Shown here: positions 4,028 through 16,283 of the stretch, piece after piece | Layout: each line of letters starts with the position of its first letter | Numbering within the stretch: position 1 is the stretch's first letter | Assembly (NCBI GenBank): GCA_027618565.1 | Contig: JAQCEQ010000014.1 | Coordinates: 1 to 60,287, forward strand | Length of the DNA: 60,287 bases | Direction of reading: 5' to 3' | Origin: Planctomycetota bacterium | Lineage (GTDB): Bacteria > Planctomycetota > Phycisphaerae > Phycisphaerales > SM1A02 | Notes under the pieces: model-generated | What the model saw: only the letters and a program-made list of their open reading frames with translations | What the model was told of the DNA's origin: nothing | The model's database searches: none | Position numbers and translations under genes: made by a program

Positions 4028-4049
4028 CGCCGCGGCTACTCCCGCGGCG
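4028..4049. terminator. GC-rich inverted repeat between convergent rpoD and gabD
   Basis: A perfect 8-bp stem (CGCCGCGG / CCGCGGCG) with a 6-base loop sits between the stop codons of two convergent genes and overlaps the end of the minus-strand gene. There is no T-run on either side, so it is at best a weak or factor-assisted bidirectional terminator. Confidence 0.35.
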
Positions 4050-5511
4050 AGCCCCGCGGCGCGGTGCCGATGGACACCATTCGCAGGTCACAGTACTCGA
4101 GGATTCCCTCGGGACCACCCTCTCGTCCCCACCCGGACTGCTTGACGCCGCCGAACGGCGCGACTGCGCTTGAGGGAAGTCCATCGTTCACCCCGATGAC
4201 TCCTGCCTCAAGGCGGCGAGCGAGTTGGTCGGCGCGCGAGGGATCACCCGTGAAGACATAGGCGGCCAGGCCGTAGGGCGTGCCATTGGCGATGTCGATC
4301 GCCTCGTCCTCGCTCCCAAACGACGCGATCGGTGCCACGGGTCCGAAGGTCTCCTCCGCGAAGCAGTCGGCGGCGGTGGGCACGCCCTTGAGGACGGTTG
4401 GTGCGTAGAAACGGTCGCGGCAACCATCGACGCGGACGCGATGCCCGCCGGTCGTGATGGTGGCGCCGCGGGCGATCGCGTCGGCAACCTGGGCCTCCAC
4501 CCTGGCCATCGCACCATCGTCGATGAGCGGGCCGACCTGCACGCCGGGCGTCAGGCCATGCCCGACCCTGAGCGACGTCGCGGCGGCGGTCAGCCGGTCG
4601 GCGAAGTCGTCGTGCAGGCGATGGTGGACCAGGATCCGGTTGGCGCAGATGCAGGTCTGCCCGGCGTTGCGGAACTTGCTCGCGGCGCACTGTTCGACCG
4701 CCAGGTCCAGGTCGGCGTCCTCGAGCACGATGAAGGGTGCCAACCCTCCCAGCTCCAGCCCCAGGCGGATGACGCGCCTGGCACTGTGCGAAATCAGGAG
4801 CCGTCCCACCGCGGTCGAGCCCGTGAACGAGACAAGCCGCGTGCTGGCGTGGCCAAAGACCCGCTCCGCAAATCGGGCCGGGTCGCAGGTGATCACCTGC
4901 ACGACGCCTCGCGGAGCCCCCGCCTCCACCGCCAGTTCGGCCAGCGCGATGGCGCACAGCGGCGTCCGCTCGTCGGGCTTCACCACCTGTGTGCAGCCCG
5001 CCGCAAGCGCAGGCGCCAGCTTGCGGGCGATCATCGCGAGCGGGAAGTTCCACGGGGTGATGGCAGCCGTGACTCCCGTGCCCTGCGCCAAGACCCTCAA
5101 GCGCTTCCCTCCGGGGAGGTCCGACTCGCGCAGCGGCCCGTCAAGGAGCGCCGGTGCCACGGCCGCGGCGTTCTCGAAGAACCCGGCCGCGTACGCGACC
5201 TCCCCCATCGCCTCCGCGACCGGCTTCCCCTGCTCCCGCGTCATCAGCGTGGCAAGCCGGTTGGCGTCTCGTCGCAGGAGGAAGCCGATCCTGGACACCA
5301 CGGCGGCGCGGGCGTGGGCCGCAGTGGATCGCCATCCGGGCAGCGCGGCGGCCGCCGCGTCAAGCGCGCGGTCGATCTCGCCGCCGGTGCAATCGGGCAC
5401 TTCGGCCACGAGTTCTCCGGTCGCGGGATCCTCAACGGCGATGGCGGTGGCGTCCGGGCGAGTGGCGACCCACTCCCCATCGATCAGGCACTCGGTCCGC
5501 ATCGTGGGCAT
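4036..5511 (-). CDS. gabD: NAD(P)-dependent succinate-semialdehyde dehydrogenase
   Basis: Aldehyde dehydrogenase superfamily enzyme, closest by eye to GabD, which oxidises succinate semialdehyde to succinate at the end of the GABA pathway. The 491-residue length is typical. It contains the cofactor-binding segment TPWNFPLAMIARKLAPALA, the general base E253 in LELGG, and the catalytic C287 in NAGQTCICANR, 34 residues later as expected. The C-terminal GGVKQSGWGREGG motif is also present. No GABA transaminase is adjacent, so the true substrate is inferred from family resemblance. It is divergent from the WXG100-like gene at 5550 and convergent with rpoD. A TAGACT hexamer ends 6 bases before its ATG, suggesting a leaderless transcript. 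Confidence 0.88.
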   Translation of the reverse strand: MPTMRTECLIDGEWVATRPDATAIAVEDPATGELVAEVPDCTGGEIDRALDAAAAALPGWRSTAAHARAAVVSRIGFLLRRDANRLATLMTREQGKPVAEAMGEVAYAAGFFENAAAVAPALLDGPLRESDLPGGKRLRVLAQGTGVTAAITPWNFPLAMIARKLAPALAAGCTQVVKPDERTPLCAIALAELAVEAGAPRGVVQVITCDPARFAERVFGHASTRLVSFTGSTAVGRLLISHSARRVIRLGLELGGLAPFIVLEDADLDLAVEQCAASKFRNAGQTCICANRILVHHRLHDDFADRLTAAATSLRVGHGLTPGVQVGPLIDDGAMARVEAQVADAIARGATITTGGHRVRVDGCRDRFYAPTVLKGVPTAADCFAEETFGPVAPIASFGSEDEAIDIANGTPYGLAAYVFTGDPSRADQLARRLEAGVIGVNDGLPSSAVAPFGGVKQSGWGREGGPEGILEYCDLRMVSIGTAPRGSPRE

Positions 5512-5517
5512 CGGACG

Positions 5518-5523
5518 AGTCTA
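5518..5523 (-). promoter_or_regulatory. -10-like box of gabD (leaderless type)
   Basis: On the minus strand TAGACT ends exactly 6 bases before the gabD start codon. This is the same spacing seen at many other genes in the window. No convincing -35 hexamer is visible. Confidence 0.5.
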
Positions 5524-5537
5524 AGTCCCCGCTTCCC

Positions 5538-5543
5538 TACACT
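5538..5543 (+). promoter_or_regulatory. -10-like box of the WXG100/FtsK cassette
   Basis: TACACT ends 6 bases before the ATG at 5550. The expected -35 position (about 5515-5520) overlaps the divergent -10 box of gabD, so the two promoters may exclude each other. Confidence 0.5.
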
Positions 5544-5549
5544 CCTCGC

Positions 5550-5822
5550 ATGGCCAAGGCAGTCGTCGATCCCAATGAACTCCGCCGGTTCGCGAATGAC
5601 CTCAGGAAGTTCAATGCCGATGTTCAGGGCGGCGTCTCCCTGCTGAGTGCGCGCATGGGCGGGCTGGCGCAGACCTGGCGAGATCAGGAGCAGACCAAGT
5701 TTGCGGAGGAGTTCGACGCGACCGTCAAGGTCCTCCAGCGATTCGTGAAGTCGGCTGACCTCCACATCCCTTTCCTGCTGCGCAAGGCGGATCGGATCGA
5801 CGACTACCTCAATCAGCGTTGA
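5550..5822 (+). CDS. WXG100/ESAT-6-like small helical protein
   Basis: A 90-residue protein predicted to be two amphipathic helices joined by a turn at TWRDQ (W43), with no signal peptide and no cysteine. Size, helical hairpin and a tryptophan at the turn match the WXG100 family of type VII secretion substrates, except that the usual W-x-G is W-R-D. The second helix has a phenylalanine (F51), as WXG100 proteins often do. No C-terminal YxxxD/E secretion signal is present. It opens a cassette in which the last gene encodes an FtsK/EccC-like ATPase, the strongest contextual support. The next gene begins 3 bases after its stop. The family call is inferred from pattern and context; a generic coiled-coil adaptor is the alternative. 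Confidence 0.6.
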   Translation: MAKAVVDPNELRRFANDLRKFNADVQGGVSLLSARMGGLAQTWRDQEQTKFAEEFDATVKVLQRFVKSADLHIPFLLRKADRIDDYLNQR

Positions 5823-5825
5823 TCG

Positions 5826-6455
5826 ATGTCCGGAGCACGCGTCCGATCGTTTGAAGTGCTGAGCCAAGCCAAGGTGGCTCTGGTGGACCTGCGTGACCGG
5901 CTCGGCACCGGGATCTCGGAGGCGACCAGCGACCTGGAGCGCTTTGGGCAATGGCTGGAGGGCGACCTCCCCCGGGAGCTGGCGTCGCGGCTGCGCAAGC
6001 AGGAGGAGGAAATCGTCATGGCCAAGAGCACCCTCTTCCGCAAGGAGTTGGTGGTGAGCGCCAAGGACAGCAAGCCTTCGGTGGTGGACGAGAAGAAGGC
6101 GCTGCAACGCGCCATCCAGCGAGCGGAAGACACGCGACAGCGCCTGGCGGCGACGAAGAAGTGGGCGATCGCGTTCCAGCGAGAACTCCAGCTCTTCCGC
6201 GGCGCTGTCACGGGGCTGCAGGGCGCCGTGGACCATGACCTCCCGATGGCGGTCGCGGTGACGGGGCGGATGCTGGTTGCGCTGGAGCGGTACGCCGCGG
6301 AGCGCGCGCCCGACCTCCAGAAGGTGTTTGCCGACGCGGAGCGCGATGCCGTCCCGGAGGGAGTGGAGTCGGGAAGCGAGGAGCGCCTCCCCTCCATGCG
6401 TCGAGGCAGCCAGGAAGGGCAGCACGACGATGCCTCCGGCGAGGCCGCACCATGA
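5826..6455 (+). CDS. Coiled-coil protein of the FtsK/WXG100 cassette
   Basis: I do not recognise this 209-residue protein. It is mostly charged alpha-helix with likely coiled coils (about 15-75 and 85-175) and a low-complexity acidic tail rich in Glu, Ser and Gly. There is no signal peptide, membrane segment or cysteine, so it is probably cytoplasmic. It starts 3 bases after the 90-residue WXG100-like gene and its stop overlaps the next start by 4 bases (ATGA at 6452-6455), so it is almost certainly cotranslated with its neighbours. By position it could be a chaperone, adaptor or longer substrate of the ATPase encoded at 6707. It could also be a long WXG/LXG-type helical substrate, but no toxin domain is visible. 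Confidence 0.6.
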   Translation: MSGARVRSFEVLSQAKVALVDLRDRLGTGISEATSDLERFGQWLEGDLPRELASRLRKQEEEIVMAKSTLFRKELVVSAKDSKPSVVDEKKALQRAIQRAEDTRQRLAATKKWAIAFQRELQLFRGAVTGLQGAVDHDLPMAVAVTGRMLVALERYAAERAPDLQKVFADAERDAVPEGVESGSEERLPSMRRGSQEGQHDDASGEAAP

Positions 6456-6673
6456 GCGCACACGGTGCCAAGGCCAAGTTGCAGTTGGCGCTCAAGGACT
6501 TTGAGACCAAGTGGCACCAGCTTTCGGAGGTGTGGGACGACCCCGCGAGCCGGGGACTGAATGCCAAGTACATCGATCCGCTCCACGACCGGATCCGGCA
6601 GGCGATCGCTGCCCTGGAGAAGATCTCCGAGGTGCAGTTGAAGGCGCGGCGCGAGTGCACGCCGGAGTCCTGA
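6452..6673 (+). CDS. Second small WXG100-like helical protein
   Basis: A 73-residue all-helical protein with no signal peptide. The first helix ends at a turn containing W28 (EVWDDP), followed by a second amphipathic helix (about 37-65, YIDPLHDRIRQAIAALEKI). This is the same helix-Trp turn-helix plan as the 90-residue protein at 5550, although the two share little direct sequence. Two small helical-hairpin proteins next to an EccC-like ATPase resemble the paired ESAT-6/CFP-10 arrangement. The start overlaps the preceding stop by 4 bases, implying translational coupling. Family membership is inferred and should be treated as a hypothesis. Confidence 0.55.
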   Translation: MSAHGAKAKLQLALKDFETKWHQLSEVWDDPASRGLNAKYIDPLHDRIRQAIAALEKISEVQLKARRECTPES

Positions 6674-6693
6674 CTGGCTTCTCCGGGGATCTC

Positions 6694-6699
6694 TACACT
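6694..6699 (+). promoter_or_regulatory. -10-like box before the FtsK/EccC-like gene
   Basis: TACACT ends 7 bases before the GTG start at 6707, the same arrangement as at 5538. The ATPase gene may therefore have its own leaderless transcript in addition to readthrough from the cassette. Confidence 0.45.
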
Positions 6700-6706
6700 C
6701 CACGGC

Positions 6707-9700
6707 GTGCCGCTGGACTTGACGCGCGATCGTGAGCCGAGTTTCACCGAGGTCGAGAGGCGGCTCCACGCGCTCCTGACGGAGGCCGGCAGTCGATTGG
6801 AGCGTGACCGGCGGGACACCGCGCAGCGGGTGGACGCCCTTCGAGAGTCAGAGGAACTCGAGCACTCCAGGACGCTGGGAACCATCCGTTCGACCGCTGA
6901 GGCGGTCATGGGAGGCGCGGATGAACTCCGGGACCGGGCGGTGGCGTCGGCGGAGGCAAGGTACGGCTCGCGGCTCCAGAAGTTTCAGGAGCAGGTGACG
7001 GAGCGCGCAGAACTCCTCAAGTCGTCGGCGGCGGACGCCGTAGCCACGGCCAAGGATCGATACGAGAAAAAGGTGTGGATCGCGGAGAGCCTCTTTGAGG
7101 AACAGGAGCCACTCCCCCGGATCCGATTCGAGGAGTCGCAATCACGGGCACGCGAGGCGATGGAGCAGGTCCATCGCGTCCTGGAAGACCTGGTGACCTA
7201 TGTGCGCGGATGCCGACAGCAAGTCCCGCCTCGTCCCGTCGTGGAGGGAACACTGTCCGATCCCGAGGCGATCATCGCGGAATCAGGCCAGTGGCTGGTG
7301 GATTGCCTTCCGCGCATCCGCTCGCACCGGCTCCCGAAGTTCCTGCGTGGCATCGTGCCCGCCGTCATTGTGGTATCCATCATCACGCTCGGGGGGACCG
7401 TCGGTTGGCTGGCCAACCTTGCGGTGGGGCACCACCAGTTTGGCGAACCGCTGAACGAGCTCCTCACCGCCGGCACCCGTGGCGCACTCATCGGCGCGGG
7501 TTCCAGCACGCTGCTGGCCGTCATCGTCATCCTGTTCGTGGCGATCGCGGTCAATCGTCGCCTCTCGGCCGAGTTGCAGGCGGCGTGGACGCATGCAGCC
7601 CGCGCCGAGGCCGCGTTTGACCTGTGGATCAAGAGGAATGCGGCCGCCCGGAGGGAAGCCGAGGCGAGGATCGTCGTGACGCGGGACGAAGCGCTGGCGG
7701 CTGCGCATACCCAATATGCCCCCGTCGAGGCTCGGGCGTCGGAATCCAAGGAACGGGCCTTTGCCAAGCTCAAGGCCCTGCGCGAGAAGGAAACCCGGAG
7801 CCTCTCGGAGGTGCGGGAGCGGTCGCTTCGCGAGGCGCTCCTGGTCCACGCGGCGCAGGTGGCGGACGCGACGCGACAGCGTGACGAGGCCCAGGCCCAC
7901 GAGCTCGCCAGGCACCGCAGCGCGGTGGAGACCATCAATGCGCATGAACGGGAATCGATCGCCGCCATGGTGGATCGGTGGTGCGCCGCGAGAAACCAGG
8001 CACAGGCCGATGCCGACGGGCTGGCGGACGGGACACGCGCGCTGCGCCGCCCGTGGTCGACGCTGGAAGGCGACTCCGCCCTCGCCGCGCGGTTCGCTCC
8101 CGCCATCCCGTTTGGCGCATTCGTGATCGACGGCACCGAGATCCCCGGTTGCCGCACTCCCCCGGGAGAGCTGGCGTGGCGTGACGGTGCGCCTCCACGG
8201 CTGGAGTGCGCGGCGACCCTGTGTTACCCGCACAAGGGCGGCCTGTTGATCGAGTCTGGAGCCGAGGGGCGCGATGAGGCGTTGCTCTGCCTGCAGGCCG
8301 CGATGATGCGGCTCCTCACGCTGATTCCTCCAGGAAAGGTCCGATTCACGATCCTGGATCCGGTGGGGCTGGGCCAGGGATTCGCCGGATTCATGCACCT
8401 GGCGGACCACATGGAGGCCCTGGTCGGCGATCGGATCTGGACCGAGACGCGGCACATCGAGTCGCGGCTCACGGAACTGACCGAGCACATGGAGACGGTG
8501 ATCCAGAAGTACTTGCGCGATGAGTTCCCCGACATCGAGTCGTACAACATCCAGGCCGACGAGATCGCGGAACCGCTGCGCTACCTTGTGATCAGCGACT
8601 TTCCCACGGGATTCAACGAGGTGGCCGTCCGCCGGCTCAACAGCATCGTGGAGAGCGGGGCACGGTGCGGCGTGCATGTCCTCCTCCTGCGCGATGTCCG
8701 GGCGTCCCTGCCGACCGGGACCGACCTGGAGATCCTGCGTTCCCGGCTCACGCGCGTCGAGCACAAGGATGGCATCTGGCGTTGCCTGGAACCCGGGATC
8801 GAGATGCTGCCCTTGCACCTGGATGTCCCGCCGGACCCGGAGCGGTCCATGGACATCGTGCACCGGGTGGGTCGCGCCGCGAAGGCCACCTCGCGAGTGG
8901 CGGTCCCCTTCCGGATGATTGCGCCGTCCGAGGCCGAGATGTGGACTCGCACGACGGAGAAGTCTCTCGCCGTGGAGCTGGGGCGGACGGGAGCCACGCG
9001 GCTGCAGCAGCTGACGCTGGGCCTCGGGACGGCGCAGCACGCCCTCATCGCCGGCCGCACGGGTTCGGGCAAGTCGACGCTCCTCCACGCCATCATCACC
9101 AACACGGCACTGTGGTACAGCCCGGATGAAGTGGAACTGTGGCTGATCGACTTCAAGAAGGGCGTGGAGTTCAAGACCTACGCCACCCACCGCCTCCCAC
9201 ACGCGAGGGCCGTCGCCGTCGAGACGGACCGCGAGTTTGGGCTGAGCGTGCTCGCCGGGTTGGACGCCGAGATGAAGCGGCGGGGGGAGAGCTATCGCAC
9301 GATGGGCGTGCAGGACCTGGCGGGCTATCGACGTGTATGCGCACAGCCACTCCCGCGCGTCCTCCTCATCGTGGACGAGTTCCAGGAACTGTTCGTCGAG
9401 GACGACAAGCTGGCCCAGGATGCGGCGATGCTGCTGGACCGATTGGTGCGGCAGGGCCGTGCGTTTGGCATGCATGTGATCCTCGGTTCGCAGACCCTTG
9501 GCGGCAGCTACGCGCTTCCGCGGACCACCATGGGGCAGATGGGCGTGCGGATCGCGCTGCAGTGCAATGAGGCGGATGCTTCATTGATCTTGAGCGACGA
9601 CAACCTCGCCGCGCGTTCTCTCTCGCGCCCCGGCGAGGCGGTCTACAACGACTCGGGCGGACTGCTCGAGGGCAACAGCCCGTTCCAGGTGTGCTGGCTT

Positions 9701-10624
9701 GAAGAGGAGGATCGAGACCGGTACCTGGAATTGACTCGTTCCACCTGTGCGGCTCGATACCCCGACCGGCCGGATCGGCTGGTGGTCTTTGAGGGCAATG
9801 CCCCCGCCGAGTGGCGAGAGGATCGACTCTCGCTGGTGGTCGCGGCCGACGCGGCTCATGCCGCCGACCGGTCCAGGCCCGGCGTGCGCATCTGGCTGGG
9901 CGATGCGGTGAGCATGAAGGAACCGACGAATGTGCTCTTGCGCCGCCAGAGCGGGAGCAACATCGTCATCGTCGGCCAGCGCGACGAGGCTGCGCTGGGG
10001 ATCTCCACCGCCGCCCTGGGCAGCGCGGTGCTGGCGTGTGCGGCGCAGCGTGGTGCGCTGCGCGTGGAGGTGATCGATGGGATCGCCCCGGATGAACCGG
10101 ATGCTGGGCGACTGGCCGAGTGGCATGCGCGGATTGGGCTGGAGGGTTCGGTCAAGCCGCCGCGTGGTGTCGCCGGCGTCCTCGCCGAGCTGGCAGACCT
10201 GGTCCGGCACCGGACCTCGCAGGGGCTCACCGACGAGCCGCCCGTCCTCCTGCTTGTCCACGGTGGCCATCGCGTCCGTGACTTGCGGCGAAACGAAGAT
10301 GACTATTCGTTCTCCTCTGACGGCACGCCCCCCACGCCCGACAAGCTCCTGGCGCTGATCATGCGAGACGGCCCGCTCGTGGGCGTGCATGCGATTCTCT
10401 GGGTGGACACGGTCACCAACCTCAACCGTTTGGTCGATCGATCCGGGATGCGCGAACTGGACTGGCGGGTGTGTTTCCAGATGTCCAACAACGACTCCAG
10501 CGCCATCATCGACTCCCCTGCCGCCAGTCGCATCGGCCAGTATCGAGCGCTGGTGGCCAGCGAGGAACACGGCACGATGGAAAAATTCCGGCCCTTTGCG
10601 CCGATGGACCGTTCTTCTCGCTGA
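6707..10624 (+). CDS. Membrane-anchored FtsK/SpoIIIE (EccC-like) ATPase
   Basis: A 1305-residue motor ATPase. Its layout is an N-terminal coiled coil (about 1-200), two membrane segments (about 213-237 and 258-285), a second long coiled coil (about 290-430) and then three FtsK-like lobes. Lobe 1 (about 480-730) has no Walker A lysine (GLLIESGAEGRDEAL). Lobe 2 has a canonical Walker A GRTGSGKST (about 783-791) and Walker B VLLIVDEFQELF (about 885-896). Lobe 3 (from about 1060) is degenerate again (IVIVGQRDEAAL). Serial FtsK lobes with partial degeneration are typical of EccC/EssC, the type VII secretion motors, whereas the DNA translocase FtsK has one motor domain and a gamma domain. The GTG start is supported by TACACT 7 bases upstream. 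A role in secretion is inferred from architecture and the small WXG100-like neighbours. Confidence 0.8.
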   Translation: MPLDLTRDREPSFTEVERRLHALLTEAGSRLERDRRDTAQRVDALRESEELEHSRTLGTIRSTAEAVMGGADELRDRAVASAEARYGSRLQKFQEQVTERAELLKSSAADAVATAKDRYEKKVWIAESLFEEQEPLPRIRFEESQSRAREAMEQVHRVLEDLVTYVRGCRQQVPPRPVVEGTLSDPEAIIAESGQWLVDCLPRIRSHRLPKFLRGIVPAVIVVSIITLGGTVGWLANLAVGHHQFGEPLNELLTAGTRGALIGAGSSTLLAVIVILFVAIAVNRRLSAELQAAWTHAARAEAAFDLWIKRNAAARREAEARIVVTRDEALAAAHTQYAPVEARASESKERAFAKLKALREKETRSLSEVRERSLREALLVHAAQVADATRQRDEAQAHELARHRSAVETINAHERESIAAMVDRWCAARNQAQADADGLADGTRALRRPWSTLEGDSALAARFAPAIPFGAFVIDGTEIPGCRTPPGELAWRDGAPPRLECAATLCYPHKGGLLIESGAEGRDEALLCLQAAMMRLLTLIPPGKVRFTILDPVGLGQGFAGFMHLADHMEALVGDRIWTETRHIESRLTELTEHMETVIQKYLRDEFPDIESYNIQADEIAEPLRYLVISDFPTGFNEVAVRRLNSIVESGARCGVHVLLLRDVRASLPTGTDLEILRSRLTRVEHKDGIWRCLEPGIEMLPLHLDVPPDPERSMDIVHRVGRAAKATSRVAVPFRMIAPSEAEMWTRTTEKSLAVELGRTGATRLQQLTLGLGTAQHALIAGRTGSGKSTLLHAIITNTALWYSPDEVELWLIDFKKGVEFKTYATHRLPHARAVAVETDREFGLSVLAGLDAEMKRRGESYRTMGVQDLAGYRRVCAQPLPRVLLIVDEFQELFVEDDKLAQDAAMLLDRLVRQGRAFGMHVILGSQTLGGSYALPRTTMGQMGVRIALQCNEADASLILSDDNLAARSLSRPGEAVYNDSGGLLEGNSPFQVCWLEEEDRDRYLELTRSTCAARYPDRPDRLVVFEGNAPAEWREDRLSLVVAADAAHAADRSRPGVRIWLGDAVSMKEPTNVLLRRQSGSNIVIVGQRDEAALGISTAALGSAVLACAAQRGALRVEVIDGIAPDEPDAGRLAEWHARIGLEGSVKPPRGVAGVLAELADLVRHRTSQGLTDEPPVLLLVHGGHRVRDLRRNEDDYSFSSDGTPPTPDKLLALIMRDGPLVGVHAILWVDTVTNLNRLVDRSGMRELDWRVCFQMSNNDSSAIIDSPAASRIGQYRALVASEEHGTMEKFRPFAPMDRSSR

Positions 10625-10656: not shown

Positions 10657-13600
10657 TCACTGGATCGAGTCGCCAGGCGGGTCCAGCAAGGTGAGTCGCC
10701 GGTCCAGGTCATCCGCGAGCCGATGCCACTTCGTGGGAGTGCTGCCGTGGGGGGGGCGCAGGTGGGGCGCCATGATCGCGACCGGCATCCACTGGAGGGC
10801 TCTGGAAAGCGAGGCAAGGTCTTCGTGCAGTGTCGCTCGGATCCCGGGTGGCAGCTGCCGCATCGCCACGCGCAGCGTGAGCCGTTGGAGCCGGCGTGAG
10901 GCGTCGTTCCAGGCGCGCAGCCCGGCCGGATCGTCTGCCGGGCCCGAGGACTTCTGGAGTGCGTGCTCCACGGCGAGCAGGGTGAGGGGGATCCTGGCGC
11001 CGGGGACCCAGTCCGCCCCGAGCAGCAGGTTGGGGACGACGGTTCGCTCGGCAATCTCGGCGGCATCATCCGCGAGTGTCCGGCGTGTGCCATGCGTGCG
11101 CTCGATGAGGCTGGCGACCCGTGTGGCCAGCGAAGTGAGTTGGAGCACCTCCCCAAGCGTCGTCGCGCAGACTTCGTGGAGCGCGGAGCGCTGGGCGCCC
11201 TGGTCGGCCACGGTGCGGCGGGCGCACACATCGAGCATGTCCTCTGGCGCCGATGTGCCCAGCACGGAAGCCTGCAGGACCAACTCGTTCCAGCGAGGGT
11301 CAAACTCGAGATGGTGCTTGATGGCGCCTCGAAGGCCGGACGAGGAACTGGGTGATGGTGAGGCGGGCGGCGGTGCGCCGGTGCGGTTCTTCCTCCAGGC
11401 GGCCAGCAACGATTCAGGCGACCTGGTCCCCGCGAGTGTCACTTCGTCGCCATCGCCGACCTCCACCAGGGGGAGCAGGTGGAGCGGAACTGGTGGAGGA
11501 TCGGCATCCCAGGCCGCCCGGACCTGGTCCGCGGCGGCGGGATCGTTCCCGATCCAACGGAGCCACGCTTCCCACTCCATGGCGACCGAGCCGCCGGCGG
11601 CTCGAAGGTGCGCGGCCACCGACTCAGCAATGGCCGACAGCGTGCCCAGCCTCTGGCGCGTTGGCTTCGGGAGCGACTTCACGAGGTGATCGACGAGCTC
11701 GCTCCTGTGCCCCGGGAGTGGCTGGAGCAGGCGCAGGAGGACGCCTTCGTCGGGGATCGCGGCAAGCTGGGCACAACCCAGCGTGACGGTCGCGCCGTCG
11801 GACGGCGATCCAGGCGCATGTTCGTACCGCACTGGCGCTCGGAGTGAGCCAGCCGCCACGGAATCGGGGAAGTCCTCGTCGGCGATGGTGTCGGGTGCGT
11901 CGTGCCGGACATCAGCGTCCGTGAAGCACAGCATGTCCGGGTCCTGCCGCCGCTCGGTCGAATGCCAGCGACGCAGTTCTGGCCAGTCGTGGATCTCGGC
12001 GGGGACACGCTGATCGAAGAACGAGAACAACTCGGATTCCGTGGCGAGAAGCCCCGTGCGCCGCCGCTTCGCCTCTTCAGCCCGCACGCGCTCCAGAAGT
12101 GCGTCATTCCTGTCCTGAAAAGCCAGCCGTGGACCGGCCCTCCCTTCCACGAGAGCCCCCTGGATCATGACATCGCGTGCGCCCTTGGGATCGATCGGGC
12201 CAAACGCCACACGAGAGCGCTGCACGACGACCAGCGAGCCCCAATGCACTTGCTCCCATGCAGCGGCGTGCCCGGTCTCCTGGACCCAGTGCGGGTCGCT
12301 CACCGTGCGGCGCAGGCCGTGATGGACCGCGGATGCCACCCACTCGCCGCGGATCGGGCCGCAGAGCCGGGCCGTCCGTCGACCTGTATCCACGACTTCG
12401 GCGGCGATGATCCATCTCGACGTGCTGTGAGACAAGGCACTGGATGGATGAATGGCCACGGACTGCCCGCTGGGGAGCTTGTACTGTCCGTCATCCATGC
12501 GCTCGGCGACGAAGCACGCCAGCCCATGCACCAGTGCTCGGTGGACCTTGCCAAGATCCGGCACGCTCGGGGCCGCCAGCGATACCGAGACGCCCGCGGG
12601 GACGAGTTGCCGGCGGAGTTGGTCGTGGATGAACTGCCACTCGCGAAGGCGCAGGTGGCTGAGTCCGCTGGAATGGCACCAACGCTTGAGGGCGCTGGAG
12701 CCGTGCTCCTCATGCGCGGTCGACCACGCGCGCCACAGCCCCAAGATAGATCCGAAGTCGCTCTTGGCGTCGTGCCAGGCCGGCGGCGCGACGATGCGTC
12801 TTGATGCTGTCGACTCCCGCATCCTCGGATCGGTGGTGGAGAGGAAGCTGGTCACGACAGCCGCCTCGGCTGGGCAGCCGAGGTCGATGGATGCGAGGAG
12901 GACGCTGGCCAGGCGTGGGTCGACGGGGAACTCCCCGATGCGCCGGCCGCGTGGCGTGAGTTCGTTGCCCGCGGAGATCGCTCCCAATTCGCGAAGCGTG
13001 TCGCGAGCCTCCGAGATCGCGCGGTCGGACGGTTGGTCCACGAACGGGAACCGCTCGGGACTCCCCAGCTGGAGCGATGCCATCCGCAGGAGCACGCCTG
13101 CCAGGTTGGTGCGCCTGATCTCCGGCTCCGTGAACGCGGTACGAGCGGCGAAGTCCTCCTCGGAGCAGAGCCGCACGCAGCGGCCCGGCCCGAGGCGCCC
13201 GGCCCGCCCCGACCGCTGTGCCGCTGCCGCCCTGGAGATGTCCTCCAGCGGCAGCCGCATCACGCGGGATCGAGTGCTGTAGCGGGCCACCCTCGCCAGG
13301 CCCGTGTCGACCACCGACCGGATGCGTGGCACCGTGAGCGAGGTCTCGGCAATGTTGGTGGCCAGGATGATGCGCGGCAAGGCGCCTGGCTTGAAGACTC
13401 GGTCCTGCTCCGTGCTGGAGAGCCGAGCGAAGAGCGGGAGGACCTCGGTGCCTTGACCGAGCCGTCCGCCGAGGATCTCCCCAAGCTGGTGGATTTCCGC
13501 TTCGCCGGGGAGGAAGCAGAGGCAGTCGCCGCCGTCGGTGCGGAGGAGCCTCACGATGGCATCGGCGGCGGCATCGAGGATCTCGTCGTCATCGGAGGGC

Positions 13601-14247
13601 GGTGCCCACTCGATGTCCACGGGATGCAATCGGCCCTCGACGTGGATGGTCGTGCAAGTGAGACCGTGGCCGCCAAAGTGCGCGGACAGTCGCTCCGCGT
13701 CCAGCGTGGCAGAGCTGAGCACGATGCGCAGCTCGGGCCGCTGGCGCAAGAGTCGGATCGACACCCCCAGCAGGAAGTCGATCGCCACGCTGCGCTCGTG
13801 GACCTCGTCAATGATGAGCGTGTCGTAGGCACCGAAGGAACGATCCCGCTGGAGGTCCTGCAGCAGGAGCCCATCGGTGATCGTGACGATCGGCGCTTCG
13901 GGCTTGAGGGAGGACTCGAATCGCGTCCGGAAGCCCACCAGCTCCCCCACGGCGTGGAGCCCCGCGGGGCACCCGCCGTGCGCCAGCTCCCAGGCGATTC
14001 GTGCCGCCACCGCCCTGGCGGCCACCCTGCGAGGTTGGGTGATCGCGATGCGGGACTCAAGCGTTGGCCGTGCACGGGCCGCGATCCGCGGGAGCAGCGT
14101 GCTCTTTCCAGAGCCGGTCTCACCCGCCACGATCGTGACTTGGCTGTCCACGACGGACGCAGCGATCTCGTCGGCGCGCGCCGCGACCGGCAGGGCGAGG
14201 TCCATCGGGCTGGCAGCGACCAGGCGTCGTCGGTCCGCGCGAATCAC
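10657..14247 (-). CDS. hrpA: ATP-dependent RNA helicase, HrpA type
   Basis: DEAH/RHA-family helicase. The 1196-residue protein has Walker A GETGSGKST at 42-50 and a DEVH box at 147-150 (DEVHERS), one residue different from the classic DEAH. The SSATL helicase motif follows, then the QRSGRAGR motif VI region (ATNIAETSLTVPRIRSVVDTG precedes it). The long C-terminal part fits the DUF3418 region of HrpA, slightly shorter than the roughly 1300 residues of the E. coli protein. In E. coli, HrpA acts on mRNA processing and rescue of collided ribosomes. The start is GTG at 14247; TAGACT ends 7 bases before it. It is convergent with the FtsK-like gene and divergent from tRNA-Val. Confidence 0.93.
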   Translation of the reverse strand: MIRADRRRLVAASPMDLALPVAARADEIAASVVDSQVTIVAGETGSGKSTLLPRIAARARPTLESRIAITQPRRVAARAVAARIAWELAHGGCPAGLHAVGELVGFRTRFESSLKPEAPIVTITDGLLLQDLQRDRSFGAYDTLIIDEVHERSVAIDFLLGVSIRLLRQRPELRIVLSSATLDAERLSAHFGGHGLTCTTIHVEGRLHPVDIEWAPPSDDDEILDAAADAIVRLLRTDGGDCLCFLPGEAEIHQLGEILGGRLGQGTEVLPLFARLSSTEQDRVFKPGALPRIILATNIAETSLTVPRIRSVVDTGLARVARYSTRSRVMRLPLEDISRAAAAQRSGRAGRLGPGRCVRLCSEEDFAARTAFTEPEIRRTNLAGVLLRMASLQLGSPERFPFVDQPSDRAISEARDTLRELGAISAGNELTPRGRRIGEFPVDPRLASVLLASIDLGCPAEAAVVTSFLSTTDPRMRESTASRRIVAPPAWHDAKSDFGSILGLWRAWSTAHEEHGSSALKRWCHSSGLSHLRLREWQFIHDQLRRQLVPAGVSVSLAAPSVPDLGKVHRALVHGLACFVAERMDDGQYKLPSGQSVAIHPSSALSHSTSRWIIAAEVVDTGRRTARLCGPIRGEWVASAVHHGLRRTVSDPHWVQETGHAAAWEQVHWGSLVVVQRSRVAFGPIDPKGARDVMIQGALVEGRAGPRLAFQDRNDALLERVRAEEAKRRRTGLLATESELFSFFDQRVPAEIHDWPELRRWHSTERRQDPDMLCFTDADVRHDAPDTIADEDFPDSVAAGSLRAPVRYEHAPGSPSDGATVTLGCAQLAAIPDEGVLLRLLQPLPGHRSELVDHLVKSLPKPTRQRLGTLSAIAESVAAHLRAAGGSVAMEWEAWLRWIGNDPAAADQVRAAWDADPPPVPLHLLPLVEVGDGDEVTLAGTRSPESLLAAWRKNRTGAPPPASPSPSSSSGLRGAIKHHLEFDPRWNELVLQASVLGTSAPEDMLDVCARRTVADQGAQRSALHEVCATTLGEVLQLTSLATRVASLIERTHGTRRTLADDAAEIAERTVVPNLLLGADWVPGARIPLTLLAVEHALQKSSGPADDPAGLRAWNDASRRLQRLTLRVAMRQLPPGIRATLHEDLASLSRALQWMPVAIMAPHLRPPHGSTPTKWHRLADDLDRRLTLLDPPGDSIQ

Positions 14248-14311: not shown

Positions 14312-14384
14312 GGGCGCGTAGCTCAGCGGCTAGAGCGCTGCTTTTACACGGCAGATGTCGCAGGTTCGATCCCTGTCGCGCCCA
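14312..14384 (+). tRNA. tRNA-Val (anticodon TAC)
   Basis: Full cloverleaf of 73 nt: acceptor GGGCGCG/CGCGCCC, D-arm GCTC/GAGC, anticodon stem CTGCT/GGCAG around loop TTTACAC, T-arm GCAGG/CCTGT around TTCGATC, and discriminator A. The anticodon TAC reads valine codons. CCA is not encoded. Confidence 0.97.
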
Positions 14385-14423
14385 CTGTTGCTGCCGACGG
14401 CACACGCGCGACCACACCCACCC

Positions 14424-16283
14424 ATGCCATTCGCCCGTCCGATGTCCATCCTTGCAGGGCTGACGCTGGCCACCCTCGTGGCTTGCGACATGACCGAGCG
14501 CGCCACGCCGACGGTGGTCGACCGGATTGACCTGAAGGAGAAGGATGGATTCCGGATCGATGTCGACCCGATTATGCGGGGAACGATTGCTTCGGAGACG
14601 ATCGTGACCGGCTACCAGCCGCTGGTGGCCCGCGGGTACGGATTGGTGGTGGACCTTCCGGGGACGGGCAGCCGCATCGCCCCCGCGCCGATTCGCGCGC
14701 AGGTCATTGCTGATCTGGCGCGAATGGGATTTGGCACGGACGGCAGCGGAACACTTCCGGGCCCGGAGGAAGTGGTGGACAGCAACACCACGGCCATCGT
14801 CGCAGTGGAGGGAATCGTTCCGCCTGGCGCGGTGAAGGGAAGCACCTTCGATGTCCGGGTCTATGTGGTGCCCGGCACGTCGACCCAGAGCCTGGACGGC
14901 GGAAAGCTGGCATATGTCGACCTGCGGCCGGGCCCCTTCCGGGTCGGGAGCGAGCAGTCCAAGCTGGTGGCCTCGGCCAAGGGACCTCTGGTCATCAATC
15001 CGTTCGCGAACAACCGGGATCCCAACTCCAACTCGGTCGACCGGCTGACCGCGCGGATCCTCAACGGTGGCGTGATCTCGGAGGACCTTCCGGTTCGGCT
15101 CCGACTCGCCACCCCAAGCCACAATCGGTCCAAGGTGATCGAGGCGGCCGTCAACAGCACCTTCCCGCGGGAGGCGGGGCAACGCGAGCCGACCGCTCGG
15201 GGTCGCACCGACGAGGTGGTCGACATCAGCATCCCGCCTTCTTGGGAAGACCGCACCGACGAGTTCGTCCAGCTGCTCAGGCATGCGCCCGTGCAGCTGG
15301 CGGACAACGACCGGATGGCCGTGTCCATCCAAAAGGCCCTGCTGGCCAACCCCGGCGCGGCGGAAGCCGCGCGATGGCGATGGCAGGCCTTGGGGAAGCA
15401 GGCGCTGCCGGCGATCCGTGAACTCTATGACTACCCGGAAGAACAACCCCGCTTTGCCGCGCTGACCGCGGGTGCGGGCCTTGGCGATCCCCTGGTCGTG
15501 CAGCCGCTGGAGAAGATGGCCAGGGAGGCCGACCGATCTCTCCGGATCAAGGCCATCGAATTGCTTGGGAGCATGGGGCCGAACACGAGCATTGACATCG
15601 CGCTGCGGCCCTTCCTGGATGACGATGACATCGATATCCGGCTGGAGGCGTACGAAGCGCTCGCAAACAGGCGAGATCCCCTGATCTTCAGGTACACCGT
15701 CGACGGGAAGTACGAGCTGGACATCGTCCCCTCCGACGACGCCCTGATCTACATCACGCAGACAGGGATCCCGCGGGTGGCCATCTTCGGGGGCGAGACG
15801 CAAGTGACGATCCCGATGACCATCCACGACTGGGACGGGAGGCTCATCATGCGCGGCGACCTGGGCGAGGATCGATTCTTGGTGCGACATCGCCCCGCCA
15901 ACGGCGGTCCCGCGGAGCAGATCATGGTCGCCCCATTCCTGCCCGAGCTGGCCTACGCGCTGGGGCACGGGGAGAGCGGGGATGCCACCCCGCACGGACT
16001 GGATATGTCGTACAGCGACGTGGTCGCCGCGCTTCACTCGCTCTGGAAGGCCGGCTATGCCAATGCGGACTTTAAGGCGCAGCAGGATCGATTCCTGGCC
16101 GAGCTCAACCGCACGGATCCGCTCACTCGACATGGGCCGCGGCCTGACTTTGCCGATGAGCGCACGGTCCTGCCGGGCGCCGACGTGCTGGCAGGGATCG
16201 ACTCCGAGGAGGTGGACCCGCTCAAGGCGGAGGCGTACCGCCCCGAGGATGGCCAGCGCCCGGACCAGGTCGTCCCGCGCTGA
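14424..16283 (+). CDS. FlgI-like lipoprotein with C-terminal repeat extension
   Basis: A 619-residue exported protein with a signal peptide ending in a lipobox (LVAC, lipidated C21). The first half resembles the flagellar P-ring protein FlgI: YGLVVDLPGTGS, then TTAIVAVEGIVPPGAVKGSTF and LDGGKLAYVDLRPG correspond to conserved FlgI blocks. From about residue 320 the protein departs from FlgI into a helical segment with HEAT-like repeats (around 360-440) and a mixed C-terminal domain. FlgI is normally about 365 residues and not lipidated, so this may be a P-ring derivative or an envelope scaffold. No other flagellar gene is present. I chose ATG 14424 because longer starts run into the tRNA; ATG 14442 is a shorter alternative that keeps the lipobox. 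Confidence 0.65.
   Translation: MPFARPMSILAGLTLATLVACDMTERATPTVVDRIDLKEKDGFRIDVDPIMRGTIASETIVTGYQPLVARGYGLVVDLPGTGSRIAPAPIRAQVIADLARMGFGTDGSGTLPGPEEVVDSNTTAIVAVEGIVPPGAVKGSTFDVRVYVVPGTSTQSLDGGKLAYVDLRPGPFRVGSEQSKLVASAKGPLVINPFANNRDPNSNSVDRLTARILNGGVISEDLPVRLRLATPSHNRSKVIEAAVNSTFPREAGQREPTARGRTDEVVDISIPPSWEDRTDEFVQLLRHAPVQLADNDRMAVSIQKALLANPGAAEAARWRWQALGKQALPAIRELYDYPEEQPRFAALTAGAGLGDPLVVQPLEKMAREADRSLRIKAIELLGSMGPNTSIDIALRPFLDDDDIDIRLEAYEALANRRDPLIFRYTVDGKYELDIVPSDDALIYITQTGIPRVAIFGGETQVTIPMTIHDWDGRLIMRGDLGEDRFLVRHRPANGGPAEQIMVAPFLPELAYALGHGESGDATPHGLDMSYSDVVAALHSLWKAGYANADFKAQQDRFLAELNRTDPLTRHGPRPDFADERTVLPGADVLAGIDSEEVDPLKAEAYRPEDGQRPDQVVPR

Follow-up and report, generated by a model that had tools for sequence, protein, structure and literature searches.

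A four-gene, probably type VII-like module with a W-x-D signature and no recognised toxin in part of the Planctomycetota

Type VII secretion is usually regarded as a Gram-positive, toxin-bearing system. The T7SSa to T7SSj systems of Gram-positive bacteria are described as having ATPases with four C-terminal nucleoside triphosphatase (NTPase) domains and, mostly, an EsaB-related protein (PMC11217815). Closer to the locus considered here is a group described in 2012, in which a solo WXG protein accompanies a distinct YueA-like ATPase with three FtsK/HerA domains, the middle one alone being active, and for which planctomycetes are listed (PMC3482391, Table 1 footnote 6). HP0062 of Helicobacter pylori has a WRD motif and clusters with an FtsK-domain gene (PMC3397514). 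FtsK/WXG100 operons linked to TerY-P or CoCoNuT genes have been discussed as defence extensions, with defensive secretion favoured, and the coiled-coil protein of CoCoNuT-type operons is described as fused to a nuclease fold (PMC11090510). We analysed 60,287 nt of a Planctomycetota bacterium (Phycisphaerales, SM1A02; assembly GCA_027618565.1, contig JAQCEQ010000014.1, positions 1–60,287; hereafter the window), in which four linked genes, A, C, B and T, occupy positions 5550–10,624 of the forward strand. These genes are probably an unusual branch of the type VII machine, present in part of one phylum and without a recognised toxin, and we give a probability of roughly 0.55 to the reading that they form a self-contained type VII-like export module.

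Gene A (5550–5822) encodes a WXG100-type protein of 90 residues with the motif W43-R-D and the C-terminus YLNQR. Gene C (5826–6455) encodes a 209-residue protein, a probable carrier or cargo, with a predicted long antiparallel two-helix hairpin and a low-confidence tail. Gene B (6452–6673) encodes a small helical protein of 73 residues with the motif W28-D-D, and gene T (6707–10,624), which starts with GTG, a predicted membrane-anchored FtsK/EccC-type ATPase of 1305 residues. This layout agrees with a first-pass annotation of the window: all four genes are open frames on the same strand, with 3 bases between A and C, a 4-base overlap of C and B, and 33 bases between B and T. Type VII systems are recognised by a WXG100 gene linked to a gene for an EccC/EssC-type FtsK ATPase, and this linkage is present here.

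The A protein scores 30.5 bits against the Pfam WXG100 family (PF06013), above the gathering score of 27.3, and is the sole match to this family within its genome. Thermotoga maritima was one of two control genomes that matched the same family. We used a profile of 22 A proteins (mean column identity 73%), which matched HP0062 over its full length (residues 1–88, E = 4.8 × 10−11), the Bacillus anthracis EsxB structure (E = 3.3 × 10−8) and the Staphylococcus aureus EsxA structure (E = 2 × 10−4). HP0062 and EsxB are solved hairpins, and A may have the same fold, judged from this profile match. W43 of A lies within WRD and W28 of B within WDD. The W-x-D motif that the first-pass annotation had read in place of W-x-G occurs in 22 of 22 aligned A proteins, in all 57 A proteins from contig-retrieved loci (some genomes are in both sets) and in 67 of 67 B proteins, where W28 and D30 are invariant; one B protein also has W-x-G somewhere. 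W-x-G does not occur in the 22 aligned A proteins, nor in the 60 C-terminal residues of the 57. In the sets examined, the tyrosine at the fifth position from the C-terminus of A is invariant.

No WXG100 match to B was found in Pfam (PF06013), and when aligned directly by hhalign, A and B showed only weak similarity (24.6% probability). The better evidence comes from genome-wide searches: when the B profile was compared with 392 Planctomycetota genomes (E = 0.001), eight genomes had a second match, and seven of these eight fell on the A gene. B is thus a probable distant paralogue of A. The nearest matches of a C profile outside C itself were also A proteins, which made up 11 of the top 12 among 6188 other open frames (best score 14.2 bits). 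From these two sets of matches, A and B appear to be versions of one hairpin design, and the data are suggestive that C is a third.

The T protein matches Pfam FtsK_SpoIIIE with 113 bits. Ahead of its Walker motifs are two hydrophobic segments (residues 209–241 and 258–291), which form a predicted transmembrane hairpin (residues 209–291; positions 7331–7579); among 62 full-length T proteins, the N-terminal part has at least two such peaks in 54, one in 5 and none in 3. In the structural model of residues 195–1305 (predicted local distance difference test, pLDDT, 83.5; predicted template modelling score, pTM, 0.65), a helix at 249–446, partly of low confidence, starts in the second membrane segment and is followed by three alpha/beta domains. 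The D1 domain (about 466–735; positions 8102–8911) is FtsK-like and lacks a Walker A motif. D2 (about 745–990; positions 8939–9676) contains the only Walker A (783–790; positions 9053–9076) and the only Walker B (885–891; positions 9359–9379) of the modelled region, and D3 (about 1010–1300; positions 9734–10,606) is again FtsK-like, lacks Walker A and is conserved at its C-terminus. Both motifs are present in D2 of all 60 orthologues compared, none of which has a Walker A in D1 or D3; a loose Walker B pattern occurs in D1 of nine and in D3 of one.

D2 has profile matches to EccC and FtsK, including FtsK motor structures. Foldseek ranked EccC first for the T model, then EccC/EssC fragments and then FtsK, and its top match was the cytoplasmic domain of Thermomonospora curvata EccC (E = 3.9 × 10−29, query template modelling score 0.31, 982 columns). 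By prediction, T is therefore an N-terminal transmembrane pair followed by tandem NTPase domains, as in type VII ATPases, and the multi-lobe, membrane-anchored motor proposed in the first-pass annotation is upheld. A variant ATPase of 1006 residues, without the membrane hairpin, was seen at one locus (L100 of genome G143, 4340–10,569), where a separate 983-residue protein with two hydrophobic stretches by eye follows the ATPase, and C and B were not found. At two other loci T appears split between frames (207 + 1092 residues; L049 of G039) or broken into several pieces (L094 of G206), in each case through an assembly error or as a real split.

Within the phylum sample (thresholds E = 0.001 for A, 10−25 for T, 10−5 for C and 0.001 for B), A was found in 60 genomes, T in 62, C in 60 and B in 61; of 267 genera, 48 have A and 50 have T. 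At least one part was found in 63 of the 392 genomes, none in 329, and all four parts in 58 of the 63, each component being nearly always single per genome. The co-occurrence of A and T has a Fisher P-value of 3 × 10−65, with genomes treated as independent and kinship uncorrected. In 40 of the 58 complete genomes the genes are contiguous, in the order A-C-B-T in all 40; in the other 18 the parts lie apart, some through contig breaks. Single-contig genomes include one in which the module is truly scattered over four loci (G141), one with A at 2.50 Mb, C and B at 4.30 Mb and T at 5.92 Mb (G063), and two with T about 0.7 and 0.5 Mb away from A-C-B (G187 and G336, respectively). Because most genomes with any part keep all four, even when these are scattered, A, C, B and T form one unit, as judged from their distribution.

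The same linkage is seen among close relatives. A T orthologue is present in 27 of the 41 nearest genomes (own included), comprising 24 of the 25 members of its own family and 3 of the 16 genomes from the order's other families. At three of these 27 loci T lies close to or at the edge of a contig; in 23 of the remaining 24, A, C and B lie upstream in order, and the last (G017) has 6.9 kb upstream without them. When the flanks of the 27 loci were compared, without gene-by-gene annotation, no further conserved gene was found, and flanking genes were common to genus subsets only, at most six other loci. At one near locus (L043 of G004, 4733–6083) about 1.35 kb separates C from B, where other near loci have little or no gap. 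The first-pass annotation had named two outcomes as contrary to its proposal, small-protein folds unrelated to WXG100 and neighbours not conserved with the ATPase; neither occurred, and the linkage it saw goes beyond chance.

A draw of named genomes, which overlaps the phylum sample, gave at least 461 T relatives, of which the best 80 were kept; A, C and B accompany T at 51 of the 55 loci where 2.5 kb or more lies ahead of T. The hosts of these best 80 are mostly metagenome-assembled genomes (MAGs) of Phycisphaerae, Planctomycetia, Pirellulales, Isosphaeraceae, Gemmatales and Sedimentisphaerales, with one labelled Lentisphaerae, one Alphaproteobacteria and three Candidatus Kuenenia, the labels being unchecked. 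The MAG named Lentisphaerae carries a complete A-C-B-T module (L186, MHBL01000336.1), and the module may therefore reach beyond Planctomycetota. In a tree of T from 41 of 45 loci (L127, L130, L100 and L102, not caught by a two-motif filter, were left out), families f32, f70, f74 and f6 each hold together and families f1, f2 and f54 are not monophyletic. On the latter ground, strictly vertical descent was rejected.

We next consider protein C. Its AlphaFold2 model (pLDDT 88.3, pTM 0.67) has helices at 9–75 and 87–158 and a low-confidence tail. The first-pass annotation had called it a coiled-coil protein; it had overlooked that C adds a further predicted hairpin to those of the two small proteins, and does so in a slot held elsewhere by larger proteins, one of them a nuclease. 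Y156 is invariant in 62 of 62 C proteins. The Pfam scan assigned C to no family and gave no LXG match, no separate LXG profile search having been made. Foldseek found no match to the C model in the PDB at E = 0.001, and a second structural aligner returned generic coiled-coil hairpins only, with Z scores up to 11.7, in that tool's unspecific range for long helices; no PPE or LXG entry is among the structural matches listed, which is neutral evidence.

Across 79 planctomycete C proteins, the window's own included, no toxin or nuclease domain was found (Pfam, E = 10−3). Eleven of the 79 have an Imm33-like C-terminal tail (PF24719, best E = 1.4 × 10−14), one has a weak VPS28 match and one a weak PUMA_CC match. 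In the eleven with the Imm33-like tail, L143 (5126–6187) among them, an immunity-type domain is fused to the presumed carrier. Polymorphic toxin systems combine a C-terminal toxin domain with an immunity gene; no Pfam toxin domain occurs in the 79 proteins, and no immunity gene lies between C and B in the window. Both absences speak more for a fixed machine than for a polymorphic weapon.

Plasmid operons of other phyla show what else can occupy the C slot. Five plasmid T matches cover at least 30% of T, and four were examined, Rhodococcus pseudokoreensis being left out. On a plasmid of Helicobacter sp. NHP19-012 an 89-residue A protein comes first, then a 340-residue protein with a WHH nuclease at its C-terminus (Pfam 44.6 bits, cut-off 25.1), its SUKH immunity neighbour, a 77-residue protein and T. 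In Caballeronia sp. SBC2, a VWA gene is followed by genes for an 89-residue A protein, proteins of 436, 113 and 76 residues, and T, and then by CARF and TerY-P genes; Pfam found nothing in the 436-residue protein of the C slot. On the plasmids of Rhodococcus and Deinococcus the small genes come after T, and the Rhodococcus cassette lies beside TerD genes.

The Caballeronia A protein exceeds the Pfam WXG100 cut-off, and for the other three the A profile gave 24 to 50 bits, 50 being the score of the Helicobacter protein. The C profile gave 28.5 bits for Rhodococcus, 18.4 for Caballeronia and 17.8 for Deinococcus, compared to 7.6, 7.8 and 2.7 bits for the best of 1000 shuffles of each protein and 14.2 bits for the best of the 6188 other open frames, scores that are perhaps flattered since shuffles do not keep coiled-coil heptads. 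The B profile scored 30.9 bits on a 144-residue Deinococcus protein. Thus A and T are homologous across phyla, C probably so in three of the four plasmids and B in one; the rest is gene order.

In the mechanism that we propose, A and B would bind C side by side and so build an elongated helical rod, by analogy with Lap1 and Lap2 on LXG proteins and with EsxB, EsxC and EsxD on EsaD. The rod would be delivered to T, possibly via the invariant C-terminal tyrosine tail of A. T would act as a membrane-anchored hexamer, powered by its middle domain, and would transfer the complex, or part of it, over the inner membrane. In the Planctomycetota the tail of C is either of low confidence or Imm33-like, so that the machine there is likely to export C itself or display it, or else to serve an unknown cargo, and the module would be kept as a single-copy fixed machine instead of a variable toxin system. 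Sequence comparison places A in WXG100 and T in the EccC/FtsK superfamily, with B distantly A-like; secretion itself is an inference. A more specific history is possible, though less likely than not: that the module is a domesticated, effector-free type VII-like machine of a diderm phylum, derived from mobile A-C(toxin)-immunity-B-T cassettes through loss of toxin and immunity. If so, it would be a single-copy physiological exporter or surface-display device for the C rod, which in some lineages bears an Imm33-like tail, and W-x-D would mark the whole branch.

Several results weigh against the export reading. In NCBIfam, A reaches 27.3 bits against WXG100_ESAT6 (TIGR03930), for which the cut-off is 44.85, and T stays below all the curated cut-offs for EccCa, EccCb and EssC: its nearest model is EccCa TIGR03924 (110.8 bits, cut-off 509.15), with 92 of 778.4 bits for TIGR03928 and 87.5 of 346.55 bits for TIGR03925. 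As the first-pass annotation had also noted, the YxxxD/E signal is missing from A, in the last 12 residues of 57 of 57 proteins; after Y156 of C it occurs in only 5 of 62. YukD/EsaB was not found (E = 0.01) in 11 of 12 module-carrying genomes, own included, and we know of no outer-membrane part for the module. Five of the 63 genomes are incomplete, with C, B and T (G402), A and T (G143), A, C and B (G326), B and T (G251) or T only (G365), and 4 of the 55 loci in the named-genome draw have T with A, C and B not nearby. On the plasmids, three of the four A proteins are below the Pfam cut-off, and the possible inflation of the C scores counts here as well. The C profile failed to recognise the 340-residue Helicobacter protein (−5.3 bits, below shuffles) and the B profile did no better than shuffles on the small proteins of Helicobacter, Caballeronia and Rhodococcus, and so these correspondences rest on gene order. 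Finally, related cassettes lie near TerY-P genes in Caballeronia or TerD genes in Rhodococcus, which allows a non-secretory role.

That role could be in defence: the module would be cytoplasmic or membrane-docked, T would pump nucleic acid, A, B and C would be adaptor coiled coils, and no protein would be exported. The VWA, CARF and TerY-P genes around the Caballeronia relative and the TerD genes beside the Rhodococcus one speak for it, as do matches of D2 to the PADLOC models SspH and mads_8, though these resemble general FtsK-type motor matches, and the treatment of such operons as defence extensions in PMC11090510, which yet favours defensive secretion. We nevertheless consider it unlikely. 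The 27 near loci hold no further gene conserved beside the cassette beyond genus subsets, genomes nearly always have one copy of each component, and no nuclease domain occurs in the 79 C proteins. T has a membrane hairpin, which the CoCoNuT-linked ATPases are said to lack (PMC11090510), and EccC structures rank above FtsK for it. PADLOC had no model that matched A, B or C, and gave no defence annotation for the cassette.

The single copy, fixed composition and retention when scattered fit a housekeeping machine of the envelope or cell cycle better than a weapon, and the generic coiled-coil hairpins that are the only matches of the C model also speak for it; in such a machine a membrane-attached rod and motor would serve the envelope, the division site or the chromosome, and nothing would be secreted. 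We regard this as rather improbable. None of the four parts was found in 329 of the 392 genomes, a patchiness by which the module is not essential for division, and 38 of the 41 near genomes also have a separate FtsK-type match of lower score, taken to be ordinary FtsK. The latter match also counts against the idea that T itself is a DNA translocase of the ordinary FtsK type whose small helical neighbours are unrelated and adjoin it by chance. D2 does match FtsK motor structures, but T and the small genes occur together in 58 of 63 genomes, even unlinked, and A is a WXG100 protein, so that we give this idea almost no weight.

Directly beside the cassette, on the opposite strand, are genes for an aldehyde dehydrogenase and a DEAH-type helicase, neither of which is part of a secretion system; dnaG and rpoD lie farther upstream and FlgI-like and SMC genes farther downstream. 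The FlgI P-ring domain match and HEAT repeats lie within one 642-residue protein (14,355–16,283). The source genome comprises 2.26 Mb in 62 contigs and is 96.8% complete. TACACT boxes lie on the forward strand 12 bases before the A start codon (5538–5543) and 13 bases before that of T (6694–6699), and could be −10 elements by position. A TAnACT box 12–13 bases ahead of the start codon was seen in 4 of 12 genes inspected, including those at 4036–5511 and 10,657–14,247 on the reverse strand. CTACACT is not over-represented as a word within the window (2 found, 3.7 expected). From the placement of the boxes, the transcripts may be leaderless, with A-C-B under one promoter and T under another.

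A conserved four-part planctomycete version without recognised toxins would offer a small model of WXG100 proteins and an EccC-type motor working without accessory parts. Planctomycetes are diderm, and the module would also inform how cargo of this kind deals with the outer membrane. The uncharacterised HP0062/HP0066 pair and the TerY-P-linked FtsK/WXG100 cassettes would come under one testable scheme, in which a helical-hairpin rod is served by one motor and the C slot holds interchangeable cargo.

Compared to the Gram-positive systems, the module shares with T7SSa to T7SSj a membrane-bound EccC/EssC-type ATPase and a WXG100 protein, and differs in having three ATPase domains and in the EsaB-like gene, not found in 11 of 12 genomes (PMC11217815). 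EccB, EccD, EccE, EsaA, EssA and EssB are absent from the cluster, among the window neighbours and the 27 near loci, no genome-wide search having been made. The twelfth genome (G381; L220, C2:132052–132282) encodes a YukD-like protein above the Pfam cut-off and unlinked to the cassette, possibly part of another type VII-like locus. With T7SSb, the likeness is a helical transport domain joined by small WXG100-like partners, as described for LXG-Lap1-Lap2 (PMC9600955) and for the pre-secretion complex of EsaD with EsxB, EsxC and EsxD (PMC10653861). Unlike T7SSb, C has no toxin domain, no EsaA, EssA, EssB or EsaB gene lies beside the cassette, and A has no YxxxD at its end. The first-pass suggestion of a minimal, divergent WXG100 and EccC/EssC-like module is supported.

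The Helicobacter sp. NHP19-012 plasmid has the same order of A, C-slot protein, 77-residue protein and ATPase, with an immunity gene within it; its WHH nuclease and adjoining SUKH gene have no counterpart in the planctomycete module, where C lacks a nuclease and an immunity gene. HP0062 shares W-R-D and a full-length profile match with A, HP0066 not having been compared. The EssC-like operon of Type III-A CoCoNuT likewise has three ATPase domains with D2 alone active, and the CoCoNuT/TerY-P operons two WXG100-type proteins and a coiled-coil protein, in an order similar to that of the Caballeronia plasmid; as described, however, their ATPases are without transmembrane helices, where T has a predicted membrane hairpin, and their coiled coil is nuclease-fused, where the 79 planctomycete C proteins have no Pfam nuclease (PMC11090510).

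Also close is the group of PMC3482391, with its WXG protein and three-domain ATPase, matched here by a Walker A confined to D2 in 60 of 60 orthologues. That group is called solo WXG and appears mobile, whereas this module is single copy and co-kept even when unlinked, and has three small or helical partners, of which C and B are not mentioned in the passages on that group. Among the literature matches listed, the planctomycete four-gene module is undescribed beyond the footnote of PMC3482391. The first-pass annotation's suggestion of a new branch holds in part: the module is divergent and its W-x-D signature is real, but its kind was already known, as a WXG protein with a three-domain ATPase, planctomycetes included (PMC3482391) and as HP0062 with its WRD motif and FtsK-domain gene (PMC3397514). 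What is new, according to the literature searched, is the four-part composition, W-x-D in both small proteins, the joint retention of the genes when scattered, and the comparison of the C slot across these systems.

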